From: Borreliella bissettiae DN127
Lineage (GTDB): Bacteria > Spirochaetota > Spirochaetia > Borreliales > Borreliaceae
Direction of reading: 5' to 3'
Length of the DNA: 64,000 bases
Assembly (NCBI RefSeq): GCF_000222305.1
Contig: NC_015921.1
Location: 836,756-900,755, forward strand
In this document: positions 5,268-28,829 of the stretch, piece by piece
Position numbering within the stretch: the first letter of the stretch is position 1
Layout: each line of letters starts with the position of its first letter
Notes under the pieces: model-generated
The model's input: the letters and a program-made list of their open reading frames with translations, nothing else
Databases searched by the model: none
Told to the model about the DNA's origin: nothing
Made by a program: the position numbers and the translations under genes

Positions 5268-7883
5268 TTGTCGAAAAATATTGATGATATTAAAAATGAA
5301 GATGGTAAAAAAATTAAGATTGTTAAGTTAAAAAAGAAGGTAGTAAAAATTGTAACTCATAATGATTTAAGTGGTAAAAATGATTCAAATAGTTCTGTTG
5401 ATTTGCATAAGCACAACAGCAAAGCTGAACATTTGCAAAACAGAGACAACAGAGCTGGAGGATATTCGCAAAACAGAGACAACAGAGCTGGTGGATATTC
5501 GCAAAATAGAGACAACAGAACTGGAGGATATTCGCAAAATAGAGACAACAGAACTGGAGGATATTCGCAAAATAGAGACAACAGAACTGGAGGATATTCG
5601 CAAAATAGAGACAACAGAACTGGAGGATATTCGCAAAATAGAGACAACAGAACTGGAGGATATTCGCAAAATAGAGACAACAGAACTGGAGGATATTCGC
5701 AAAATAGAGACAACAGAACTGGTGGATATTCGCAAAATAGAGACAACAGAACTGGGGGATATTTGCAAAACAGAGACAATAGGGCTGGAGGATATTCGCA
5801 AAACAGAGATAGTTTAGCATCTCAATATCAAGGTTCGGCAAAGAAAACATATGTTGCCAAAAATAATTCTCAAAATAAATATACTACTTCTGTGTCTTTT
5901 AGAAGAGTTATAAAGACCAAAGTTCCTGTTATTGTTAGCAGCACATCTTCATCAGATTCTGAGAATAGTAAAGAGTTAAATCGTAAGCTTGGCGAGAAAA
6001 AAAAGCAGCAACAAGAAAGTCAAAAAAGCTATAAGAGAAAAAAAGCAGAGACTGAGAGCAAGACAATTGAACAAAAAGTTTTTGAGCAACTTCAAAAAAA
6101 GAAAAGAGAAAATTTAGCTAATCCTATTCCAAAGTCAATTGACATTATGGGCAGTATTACTGTTTCTGATCTTGCAAGAAAGATGAATTTAAAATCTTCT
6201 GATTTGATTGCTAAATTAATGGCTTTGGGCGTAATGGTGACTATTAATGAAAAAATAGATTCTGATACAGCAACTATTTTAGTTGAAGAATATGGCTCAA
6301 AAGTTAATGTTGTTTCTATTTATGATGAAACGGTTATAGAAGAAGAGATAGAGGATCAAAGCAAAAGAATTGAAAAGCCCCCTGTTATTACAATAATGGG
6401 TCATGTTGATCATGGCAAGACCAAACTGCTTTCTGTGCTTCAAAATATAGATATAAATCAAACGGAGTCTGGTGGTATTACTCAGCATATTGGAGCTTAT
6501 ACTATTGTTTATAATGATCGAGAAATAACATTTTTAGATACTCCCGGGCATGAAGCTTTTACTATGATGCGAAGTCGTGGGGCTCAAGTTACAGATATTG
6601 TTGTTCTTGTTGTTTCAGCAATTGATGGTGTTATGCCTCAAACCATTGAAGCTATTAATCATGCAAAAGAGGCAAATGTTCCAATTATTGTTGCTATAAA
6701 TAAGATTGATTTGCCGGATTCAAATCCCGATAAGATTAAACATCAGCTTTCAGAATACGGCTTAGTATCTGAGGATTGGGGGGGAGACACTATTTTTGTG
6801 TTGATTTCTGCTCTTAAAAAAATAGGAATTCCTGAACTTCTTGATATGATTCTTTTACAATCAGATATGATGTTATTAAAGGCAAACCCATCCAAAAGAG
6901 CTATTGGAAAGGTACTTGATGCCAAGATTGATTTGGGTCGCGGAATAGTTTGTTCTGTTATTATTGAGGATGGAACCCTTTATGTGGGAGATTCTTTTGT
7001 GGGTGGAGCATGCTATGGTAAAGTTAAGGCATTAATTAACGACAAGGGTGTTTCTGTTAAGAGTGTTGGACCTGCTAAAGCTATTAGTGTTTTAGGATTT
7101 TCTTCAATGCCTCAAGCCGGGGATCCTTTTCAAGTAACTAAAACTGAAAAAGAAGCAAAATTGATCAGCTCCAAAAGACAAGATCTTAAAAAATATGAAT
7201 CTTCCAAAAATGTAAAGAAAGTTACCATGTCAAATCTTTATGATTCAATCAAAGAGGGAACGCTTAAAGAGCTTAAAATAATTTTAAAAGCAGATGTTCA
7301 AGGCTCAGTCGAAGCTTTAAAGAATTCTCTTGAAAAATTGACAAACGATGAGGTTCGAGTAAGAGTTGTACATTCATCAGCGGGGGTGATAACTGAAACA
7401 GACATTAGCTTTGCTTCAGCAAGCGATGCTATTGTTATTGGATTTCATGTAAGGCCTACTGCAAAAGCTCAAGTACTAGCGGATCAGGAAAAAGTTGAAA
7501 TTAGAAAGTACAATGTTATTTATGATGCTATAAATGATGTTAAGTCAGTTCTTGAGGGAATGCTTGAACCAGATGTTGAGCAACAGTTTATTGGTTTTGC
7601 TGAAGTGAGAGCTGTAATAAATGTTCCTAAAATCGGGGTAATAGCTGGTTGTTATGTTTCTAGGGGATTAATAAAGCGAGATGCGATTACTAATGTGATG
7701 AGGGATGGTTTGCAGATTCATTCTGGAAAAATATCATCTTTAAAGCGATTTAAAGATGATGTTAAAGAAGTTGCTGAGCAATATGAGTGTGGTGTTGTGA
7801 TTGATAATTATGCTAATATTAAAGAAGGAGATATAATTGAAGCATTTGAGATAAAAAAGGTGAAAAAATCTTTTAAAGCTTAG
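5268..7883 (+). CDS. infB: Translation initiation factor IF-2
   Basis: IF-2 is the GTPase that places initiator tRNA on the 30S subunit and promotes 50S joining. The N-terminus is a lysine-rich segment (1-56), then eleven copies of an 11-residue repeat with consensus [11 protein letters not shown] (57-177), then a charged linker and an IF2-N helical domain near residues 290-340. The G domain has GHVDHGKT at 378-385, DTPGHE and NKIDL, followed by domains II-IV. Length is 871. The TTG start has a strong GAGGAGGAG site just upstream, inside the nusA end. The repeat array is the odd part: the six central copies are identical at the DNA level, which suggests recent expansion. Confidence 0.97.
5436..5812 (+). 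repeat. 33-bp in-frame tandem repeat array within infB
   Basis: Eleven complete 33-bp units run from 5436 to 5798, with a partial twelfth to about 5812. Copies 3 to 8 are identical. Copies 1, 2, 9, 10 and 11 carry one to a few substitutions, mostly at the GGA/GGT/GGG glycine codon or an Ala/Thr change. Because 33 is divisible by three, gain or loss of units keeps infB in frame. It behaves like a coding minisatellite. Confidence 0.97.
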
Positions 7884-25766: not shown

Positions 25767-26633
25767 GTGAAAAGTATGACAGGATTTTTTTATTTGGAAA
25801 AAATAATTGGTAACTATATGTTTAGTGTTAATTTGAAATCTTATAACGGAAAGTTTTTAGAATTTAAATTTAGGTTACCAGAAATTTTTTCTGGCTATGA
25901 TCTTGATATAAGAAATTTGATTTCAAAATATATTAGCAGGGGCAATGTTTTTTTAAATGTAGGATATAAAGAATTGGTTCCTCGTGTGAATTTTACAGTT
26001 AATCCTAATTATATTGAGGCTATTTCTAGACTTAGAGATTCTTTGGCGCATACCAATCTTAATATTAAAAACGAACTAAGTTTAGGTGATTTTTTATCAT
26101 TAAAGGGCGCTTTGATAATTGATGAGGATAGTGAGCATCAAGAGGAGATTTATGGGTTGTTTAAAGGTGTTCTAGAGGAAACCTTATCCCATTATAATAA
26201 TGGAAGAAGTTTTGAAGGAGAAAATACTAAATCGGATATCGTGTCAACTCTTGCACTAATAGAGCGAGACCTTAAAATTGTTAAAGATGCTTGCAGCGAC
26301 ATAAATGTCAGATTATTTGCAAGCATTAAAGAAAATATTTCTAAATTAATGGATGAATTTAGAGATTTGAGTATTGCAGAAGAGGCCGCTAAAATGGCAA
26401 TTCGTTTGGACATTAATGAAGAGATTATTCGTTTAGATTCTCACATAGAAGCTTTTTATAAAAATCTTGAATATGAGATATGCGGCAAAGTTCTTGAATT
26501 TATTTCTCAAGAAATGCACAGAGAAATAACAACTATGAGTAATAAGGCAGTTGATCTTGATATTAAAAATTTGATTTTGAATATGAAGTTAAATTTAGAA
26601 AAAATAAAAGAGCAAATAAGGAATGTTGAATGA
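25767..26633 (+). CDS. yicC: YicC-family endoribonuclease
   Basis: The 288-residue protein shows the YicC hallmarks: the N-terminus KSMTGFF, the SVNLKSYNGKFLEFKFRLPE block and the C-terminal EINEEIIRLDSHIEAF/GKVLEFISQEMHRE/NKAVDL signatures. Members of this family act as endoribonucleases in other bacteria. I set the start at GTG 25767, with AAGGG seven bases upstream. The longer reading frame begins inside murC and adds residues not found in the family. The start of the next gene overlaps the stop by ATGA. Confidence 0.92.
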   Translation: MKSMTGFFYLEKIIGNYMFSVNLKSYNGKFLEFKFRLPEIFSGYDLDIRNLISKYISRGNVFLNVGYKELVPRVNFTVNPNYIEAISRLRDSLAHTNLNIKNELSLGDFLSLKGALIIDEDSEHQEEIYGLFKGVLEETLSHYNNGRSFEGENTKSDIVSTLALIERDLKIVKDACSDINVRLFASIKENISKLMDEFRDLSIAEEAAKMAIRLDINEEIIRLDSHIEAFYKNLEYEICGKVLEFISQEMHREITTMSNKAVDLDIKNLILNMKLNLEKIKEQIRNVE

Positions 26634-27172
26634 AAATAGCACTTTCTGGTAAGAGTGGTTGTGGTAATACTACTGTAAGTGGTATGATTGCCAAACATTA
26701 CGGTCTTGAGTTTATTAATTATACTTTTCATGATATTGCAAGAGAGCATAATATCCCTTTTTCAGAGTTTTATGAAAAAGAGATAATAGGAAGAGATGAT
26801 TATTATTGGGATAGATATCTTGATAATAGATTGTCTGTGCTTTCTAAAAAAAATAATACGGTGCTTGCTTCTCGTCTTGCTATTTGGATTTCTAAGAGTG
26901 CTGATTTAAAAATATATCTTTATGCTAAAATGGAAGTTAGAGCTGAAAGAATAATGACTAGAGAGGGGGGCATGTATTCTGATGTTTTAAGCACTACTTT
27001 TAGTAGAGATGAAAATGATAAAAAAAGATATTTAGCTATTTACAATATAGATATTGATGATTATTCTTCAGAGACCGATTTGGTGATTGATGTTACAAAT
27101 ATTAATCCAAATGAAGCTTTTGAATTAATTAGAGATGAAATTGATAAAAGAAATTTGAAAAAAATTAGCTAA
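26630..27172 (+). CDS. Cytidylate kinase-like protein with altered P-loop
   Basis: A 180-residue NMP-kinase-like protein of the shorter Cmk2 type. It begins with SGKSGCGNTTVSG at 6-18, where the Walker A lysine (family GxxxxGK[ST]) is replaced by N13. Other kinase-like parts are present: INYTFHDIAREH, a DRYLDNRL segment, ASRLAIWI, a lid with RAERIMTREGG, and RDENDKKRYLAIYNIDIDDYSSETDLVIDV. It is usually annotated cmk. The gene sits between yicC and rpoZ, a position normally held by guanylate kinase (gmk). Substrate and activity are therefore uncertain. ATGA overlap with yicC. Confidence 0.8.
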   Translation: MKIALSGKSGCGNTTVSGMIAKHYGLEFINYTFHDIAREHNIPFSEFYEKEIIGRDDYYWDRYLDNRLSVLSKKNNTVLASRLAIWISKSADLKIYLYAKMEVRAERIMTREGGMYSDVLSTTFSRDENDKKRYLAIYNIDIDDYSSETDLVIDVTNINPNEAFELIRDEIDKRNLKKIS

Positions 27173-27207: not shown

Positions 27208-27408
27208 ATGACTAAAGTGCCTTTAAAAAAAATACAAGATTTTGATGGAAATTTTTATGAACTTGTTGTTGCAACTATAATGCGCACAGAGCAAATCATA
27301 GACAATATTTCTTTAGCAGAACATGCTACTTTTGATGATAAAATATTAGGGCAAGCTTTTAATGACGTTTTGACTGGTAAATTTAGCTATTCAATTGAAG
27401 GAAGATAG
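27208..27408 (+). CDS. rpoZ: DNA-directed RNA polymerase omega subunit
   Basis: A 66-residue protein whose middle, [15 protein letters not shown], matches the omega core helix (family pattern FELVLVAAKRARQI), followed by a segment like the second omega helix. Omega stabilises the beta-prime subunit. The match is weak because the protein is small. The context is strong: yicC, an NMP-kinase-like gene, then rpoZ is a conserved bacterial order. ATG start with AAGGAG seven bases upstream. Its last codons overlap miaA by 14 bases. Confidence 0.75.
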
Positions 27409-28315
27409 AATAGTTTTTATTTTTGGCCCTACAGCTGTGGGCAAAAGCAATATTTTATTTCATTTTCCAAAAAATAGAGCAGAAATTATTAATGTTGACT
27501 CTATTCAGGTGTATAAAGAGTTTAATATAGCCTCTTCAAAGCCAAGTAAAAATTTAATGAAACATATAAAGCACCATTTAGTAGATTTTTTAGATCCCCA
27601 AAAGGAGTATACTATTGGAATTTTTTACGAACAGGCTTTAAAAATAGTAAAAGAAATAAGACAGAAAAAAAAAATTCCCATATTTGTAGGAGGTACCGCT
27701 TTTTATTTTAAGCATTTAAAGGACGGATTTCCTTTAACACCTTTGGTTACTTCTGAAGTAAGAATTTATGTAAACAATCTTTTAACTCTTAAGGGCAAAT
27801 CTTATCTTTTAAAAGAGTTGAAAAATGTAGATCCCATTAGATTTAATATGTTAAATAAGAATGATATTTATCGCATTAAAAGATCGCTTGAGGTTTACTA
27901 TCAAACGGGAATTCCTATTAGCCAATTTCAAAAAAAACAAAATAGCGAGTTTAAAAATATTGTGATTATAGGCCTTAATAGATCTTTTGAAGATTTAAAG
28001 ACTAGAATATCAACAAGAATTAATGAAATGCTCAATATTGGATTGCTTTCCGAGATTAAGGGTTTATTTAGTAAGGGTTACAATGAAAATACTCCAGCTT
28101 TTAAAGGGATAGGCTATAATGAGTTTTTGTTATGGAAAAGTAGACCTTGGTATGATTTAAATGATATAATAAGTTTAATAAACAAAAATTCGTTTTTATA
28201 TGCAAAAAGGCAAATGACCTTTTTTGCCAAAATTTCTGATGTTTTATGGCTTCATCCAGAGGATGATTTAGATAACATTTTGAATTTAATTTTTAAAGTT
28301 GATAAGGAGATTTAG
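27395..28315 (+). CDS. miaA: tRNA dimethylallyltransferase MiaA
   Basis: MiaA adds a dimethylallyl group to A37 of tRNAs reading codons that start with U. The 306-residue protein has the P-loop GPTAVGKS at 11-18, the substrate motif [24 protein letters not shown], and later [13 protein letters not shown] and FAKRQM-like segments typical of the family. The start is TTG inside the end of rpoZ, with GAAGG close upstream. The stop is three bases before a small basic ORF that has its own ribosome site within the miaA end. Confidence 0.95.
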
Positions 28316-28318
28316 GGA

Positions 28319-28411
28319 GTGCCTTGCGGAAGAAAAAGAAAATTAAAAAAAATTTCTACCCATAAAAGGAAGAAGAAAAGAAGAAAGAATAGACATAAGA
28401 AAAAAAAATAA
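28319..28411 (+). CDS. Small basic protein, probable ribosomal protein bS22 (AURKAIP1/COX24-like)
   Basis: A 30-residue ORF starting at GTG, with AAGGAG (28304-28309) about nine bases upstream and three bases after the miaA stop. The product is about 60% Lys/Arg, starting MPCGRKRKLKKISTHKRKKK and ending in RHKKKK. The pattern K-x-ISTHKRKKKRRKNRHKK matches the short AURKAIP1/COX24 (mS38-like) family, whose bacterial members include the tiny 30S protein bS22. I recall that a cryo-EM structure of the B. burgdorferi ribosome reported non-annotated bS22 and bL38 proteins. This ORF is a good candidate for bS22. A stable hairpin follows 11 bases later. The family call is from memory of the pattern. 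Confidence 0.75.
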   Translation: MPCGRKRKLKKISTHKRKKKRRKNRHKKKK

Positions 28412-28420
28412 ATAATTTAT

Positions 28421-28451
28421 TACATAGATCGGACTTTTGTCCGGTTATGTA
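28421..28451. terminator. Bidirectional terminator hairpin between miaA unit and lipoprotein gene
   Basis: TACATA-g-AT-CGGAC (28421-28434) pairs with GTCCG-GT-TATGTA (28439-28451) around a TTTT loop, with one bulged G and one G-T wobble. On the - strand the hairpin is followed by a long T-rich run (complement of the A-rich bS22 end), so it should terminate the convergent lipoprotein transcript well. On the + strand there is no T-tract. Confidence 0.7.
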
Positions 28452-28457
28452 GTGGAA

Positions 28458-28829
28458 CTATTTAGAATGTTCAATTATTATATTGTTGACTATATTTATG
28501 TCTTTGCTAAAGATGTATCTTTTAGTTCCCTTGTAATTGACTAGGATCCAATTTCCTTCAATTCCATAGCGTTCTGTTTTTTCTAGTGTTTTTTCAATTT
28601 TTACGACTTCATCTTTCCTGAGTAGAACCGCGTAATCATAATCTAATTCGCTATTTTTCTTAGTGCTTTTGCTAAGAAAAGCATAATCTTTTATTATTAT
28701 GCCCATTTTATTGCTAAAGCCCAGAATGCTACTTTTGGGCAAATTTAATTTTTGAATGAGAGGAATTTTGTTATTGTTATTACAGGCTAATAGAATTAAG
28801 GATATTAAATATAATATTTTTGTATTCAT
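28458..28829 (-). CDS. Small lipoprotein with SH3-like C-terminal domain
   Basis: A 123-residue protein with a clear lipoprotein signal: basic start, hydrophobic core and lipobox LLAC with C16, followed by a flexible NNNN tether. The rest (about 40-120) alternates beta strands and ends with GNWILVNYKGTKRYIFSKDI, a pattern like bacterial SH3 domains. It probably sits in the periplasm or on the surface; no function is evident. ATG start with AAGGAAA about six bases upstream. It is divergent from a beta-barrel protein gene, with an 80-bp shared upstream region. Confidence 0.8.
   Translation of the reverse strand: MNTKILYLISLILLACNNNNKIPLIQKLNLPKSSILGFSNKMGIIIKDYAFLSKSTKKNSELDYDYAVLLRKDEVVKIEKTLEKTERYGIEGNWILVNYKGTKRYIFSKDINIVNNIIIEHSK

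Follow-up and report, generated by a model that had tools for sequence, protein, structure and literature searches.

Known forms of bS22

The name bS22, which is distinct from S22 as used for the unrelated Escherichia coli protein Sra/RpsV, denotes a ribosomal protein whose closest described case is that of the Borrelia burgdorferi 70S ribosome. In the paper reporting this structure (PMC10618245), bS22 was absent from the annotation, and a translated genome search led to bb0822, a gene with a GUG start at positions 867605-867697 of AE000783.1, whose side chains fit the density map. The protein was placed in a pocket of the 16S rRNA helices h2, h27, h44, and h45, with a contact to H68 of the 23S rRNA upon subunit joining; its transcript was described as abundant in fed nymphs, and K10Q as its sole change among the species of that study (PMC10618245). 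The same source considers Borrelia bS22 closer to the Bacteroidota type than to mycobacterial bS22, assigns chain 5 of 7jil to Flavobacterium johnsoniae, and names mitochondrial mS38 (AURKAIP1/COX24) and eukaryotic eL41 as analogues at the same site. In PMC6652808, as far as its text was available, AURKAIP1/COX24 is the label of a mycobacterial gene and nothing more.

A literature search on bb0822 with Borrelia returned the structure paper alone, a search for bS22 and Treponema together found nothing, and among the best 25 of 2,065 matches listed for bS22, ribosom and spirochete terms the structure paper was the only one on topic. The gene and its role were thus published previously in PMC10618245 and are no new discovery; what is added is that this ribosomal protein gene, near the decoding region and missed by annotation, is now confirmed in another genome. 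The phylum-wide distribution of bS22, its linkage to miaA outside Borreliaceae, the additional substitutions and the tail difference described below appear to go beyond that paper.

The reading frame after miaA in Borreliella bissettiae

The window, i.e., the whole stretch of 64,000 nucleotides analysed from Borreliella bissettiae DN127 (NC_015921.1, positions 836,756-900,755), had been given a sequence-only reading that proposed an unmarked, basic, GTG-started frame of 30 residues after miaA as a probable bS22 gene. The frame was found exactly as described at 28319..28411 on the forward strand (TAA included), and it translates into MPCGRKRKLKKISTHKRKKKRRKNRHKKKK, 30 residues. Lysine and arginine account for 63% of these (about 60% had been estimated), the highest share among the window's 339 ORFs with lengths of 25-60 aa, where the runner-up reaches 48%; the product thus has the size sought for bS22, about 30 residues, and the required composition, with Lys and Arg making up over half. 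The likely ribosome-binding site, AAGGAG at 28304..28309 (+), lies within the last codons of miaA, as the sequence-only reading had noticed, and is separated from the GTG by 9 nt, while the gap between the miaA stop and the GTG is 3 nt. As this site is inside the end of miaA, translation of bS22 may be partly coupled to that of miaA.

Three same-strand frames precede bS22. The tRNA isopentenyltransferase gene miaA occupies 27395..28315 (+; TTG start as listed; Pfam IPPT, E 1.3e-67), and its listed start is overlapped by a 66-aa ORF at 27208..27408 (+), which we take to resemble the RNA polymerase omega subunit and in which a Pfam scan found 0 families. Further upstream, at 26630..27172 (+), lies a cytidylate kinase-like gene (Pfam Cytidylate_kin2, E 2.3e-15). 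Judged from this layout, bS22 is probably co-transcribed with all three of these frames; the main text of the transcriptome paper PMC10319736 mentions neither miaA nor bb0820-bb0822. Past the bS22 stop, a hairpin at 28416..28456 (+) may mark the transcript end, with a folding energy of -21.8 kcal/mol (z -5.9) computed for the stretch 28405-28465. A terminator scan of the window did not list this hairpin because no run of T follows it. Across the family, the 60 nt after bS22 folded better than 95% of 100 shuffles at 26 of 36 loci and failed to do so at 10. Elsewhere in the window, an ORF at 5268-7883 resembles IF-2 by eye and has about ten tandem repeats near its N-terminus.

The identity of the product was checked in the way the sequence-only reading had suggested, with the bS22 chain of the Borrelia ribosome model as the reference. 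A PDB sequence search found residues 1-28 identical to all 28 modelled residues of 8FMW chain V (E 1.5e-11), which is labelled "30S ribosomal protein bS22" in the Borrelia burgdorferi 70S ribosome. Up to E 10, three distinct sequences were returned, 8fmw_V, 7jil_5 (E 4.7e-6), and 9i5v_10 (E 8e-5), and the matches to the structurally identified chains 8fmw_V and 7jil_5 place the product among the bS22 proteins. In a genome of the same genus (G022) the ORF lies at 867605, equal to the bb0822 coordinate of PMC10618245, so that G022 is probably the reference strain and the window probably comes from another species; this paper, with its non-annotated, GUG-started bb0822, is also the B. burgdorferi ribosome study to which the sequence-only reading had referred. 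The window genome (1,403,443 bases) holds a single bS22 match, and 36/36 Borreliaceae genomes match the protein. Compared as DNA with plasmid records, the region gave no match.

Could the frame nevertheless be an untranslated chance ORF? The region after miaA is short and A-rich, the Pfam and NCBIfam libraries are without a match, and mass spectrometry in PMC10618245 detected all ribosomal proteins but bS22. That last absence says little, since every fully tryptic fragment computed from the bS22 sequence has ≤5 residues and the database searched in that study was the reference proteome of 1290 sequences (PMC10618245). A lack of transposon insertions in bS22 was also reported there, which is poor evidence for a gene so short. 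A chance frame is refuted by its identity to a modelled ribosome chain (8fmw_V), and its retention in all 36 family genomes with mostly synonymous changes speaks against it as well; we give it practically no probability. The structure match, the single match in its own genome, the family-wide presence and the mostly synonymous variation confirm that the bS22 ORF is real.

The bS22 interpretation made from the letters alone is therefore supported. We are almost certain that the ORF is bS22, and it likely works here as in 8FMW, as a very basic bent helix filling a pocket of the 30S rRNA; that the window genome differs from the structure-solved genome, and that the terminal residues differ, is counted against this identity. 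From this pocket, bS22 would brace RNA close to the decoding region and provide a further inter-subunit contact.

Conservation and gene order in the spirochaetes

Within Borreliaceae, 36 loci (L010-L045) were compared. At 35 of them bS22 starts with GTG and at the remaining one with ATG, and every locus has AAGGAG ahead of the start, at a spacing of 9 nt (33 loci), 10 nt (two) or 8 nt (one). Among codons 2-28, 23 of 27 are variable, and residue changes are confined to positions 10, 11, and 23: bS22 evolves under purifying selection. The substitutions are K10Q (6/36), K11R (1/36), and K23Q (1/36), plus changes in the tail. The latter ends in KKKNK-stop at 33 loci, KKKNR and KKRNR at one each, and KKKK-stop in the window alone, where a run of nine A stands at 28400..28408 (+); the G022 copy (L036) has eight and the usual KKKNK end. 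The window's tail is either a real one-base indel or a homopolymer assembly error, and it leaves all 28 residues of the 8FMW model unchanged. Going upstream from bS22, the first stop of a long open frame is reached after 3 nt at 17 of the 36 loci and after 2-27 nt at the others. Four neighbours have relatives at 36/36 loci each: miaA, the omega-like ORF, the cytidylate kinase-like gene and a convergent 123-aa gene. The last of these (28458-28829, -) has a lipoprotein-like start by eye, no match in a Pfam scan, and family relatives at 47-100% identity.

When the phylum was searched with the single protein, 250 of 296 genomes gave a match at E <= 0.01, including 207 of 231 good assemblies; by row count, 31 of the matched genomes are Borreliaceae, which leaves 219 matched among the 265 genomes of other families. 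The reversed bS22 peptide, which controls for composition-driven matches and with which positives were not expected, had 0 matches in a similarly drawn set of 292 genomes, and this difference is a further point against a chance frame. When the 46 non-matching genomes were searched with a profile, five gave matches at E <= 0.1: those in G036 and G058 are convincing, that in G045 is weak, and the other two contain internal stops. The profile search found no convincing bS22 in genome G263 or in the non-matching genomes of families f32, f42, f46, and f47 either, which suggests that the gene was lost or has strongly diverged there. As far as such searches can tell, bS22 is widespread in the phylum and elsewhere absent or too divergent to be seen, some of the assemblies in question being incomplete. 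The matched share suggests that looking for this gene is feasible in most genomes of spirochaetes.

Outside Borreliaceae, 39 loci were picked by hand (1-6 per family, 24 families). Here bS22 starts with GTG in 20, ATG in 18, and TTG in one, measures 28-31 residues, and follows a Shine-Dalgarno-like motif in 38. A same-strand miaA lies within 3 kb upstream in 14 of the 39, representing 12 of the 24 families, and is absent from the fetched stretch in the other 25; the proposed check of other spirochaetes thus bore out the position after miaA in all 36 Borreliaceae loci and in a part of the distant loci. Among the 14 linked loci, the distance from the end of the miaA frame to bS22 is 38-181 nt in six and 1.1-2.2 kb in eight, and ORF clusters of Hfq type (seven loci) and SPFH type (six loci) lie between the two genes (each typed by a Pfam scan of a single member). 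Upstream of miaA, 5/39 loci have a relative of the omega-like ORF, and a dxs-type ORF (Pfam, one example) follows bS22 on the same strand in 13/39. At three loci of one family (L061, L065, L084), bS22 was seen away from miaA and near ORFs that by eye are bS6-like and single-strand-binding-protein-like; at L084 the latter two sit on the strand opposite to bS22.

Since miaA precedes bS22 in half of the sampled distant families, the linkage is likely older than Borrelia, though not universal. The shared gene order would be ancestral, with the qualification that related genomes among the 39 loci are not independent. Somewhat more probable than its opposite, in our estimate, is a wider reading in which bS22 would be a near-core ribosomal protein of the phylum, easily missed owing to its 28-31 residues and frequent GTG start, and in which the order omega-like ORF, miaA, bS22 would be ancestral and kept by Borrelia, placing an inter-subunit helix and a tRNA-modifying enzyme in one transcript. 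For gene finding, bS22 illustrates cleanly how a conserved gene of ~90 bases, often GTG-started, can go unrecognised by the Pfam and NCBIfam libraries tried.

Comparison with known systems

The family link to AURKAIP1/COX24, which the sequence-only reading had seen in the residue pattern, is a weaker point after the HMM check. Scans of bS22 and 23 relatives with Pfam and NCBIfam gave no usable family; the protein gave no match to PF08213 (COX24_C, cut-off 23 bits), a PF08213 search of the window genome gave no match, and among the 23 aligned relatives three were matched, weakly (best E 0.17). A profile of these relatives searched against solved structures again led to 8fmw_V, 7jil_5 and 9i5v_10, as the single sequence had done, while chains from mitochondria or actinobacteria were not reached. 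As these libraries do not recognise bS22, the AURKAIP1/COX24 link rests on the ribosomal position as given in PMC10618245 and PMC10085706. The same-site analogues differ: mS38 is longer than bS22 and eL41 is a single unbent helix (PMC10618245), and neither has a sequence match to the window's bS22 by the COX24 profile or the PDB profile search.

The actinobacterial proteins of Mycobacterium smegmatis and Cutibacterium acnes are alike in being highly basic and in occupying the same pocket (PMC10618245, PMC10085706), whereas they are unreached from the window's protein by sequence or by the 23-sequence profile in the PDB search. By analogy with what has been proposed for free C. acnes bS22, the protein might serve chiefly as an antimicrobial peptide, released and active away from the ribosome; added C. 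acnes peptide inhibited the growth of three bacteria as well as cell-free translation (PMC10085706). Those assays, however, used added peptide and concern another phylum, 30 residues leave no space for a usual signal peptide, and the Borrelia chain was observed in the ribosome (8FMW, PMC10618245), which makes such a main role very improbable.

Closer to the window's protein are the Bacteroidota-type chains 7jil_5 and 9i5v_10, the latter named AURKAIP1/COX24 domain-containing protein. Both have 30 residues and align with it end to end at the E-values given above, with differences at roughly a quarter to a third of the aligned positions. Closest of all is B. burgdorferi bS22 (bb0822, 8FMW chain V; PMC10618245). 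The window belongs to a different genome and its product ends in KKKK instead of KKKNK, and the helix in the h2/h27/h44/h45 pocket was seen in B. burgdorferi, in a near-identical chain to which the window's protein is tied by sequence; the two are alike at 28/28 modelled residues and share the same GUG start.
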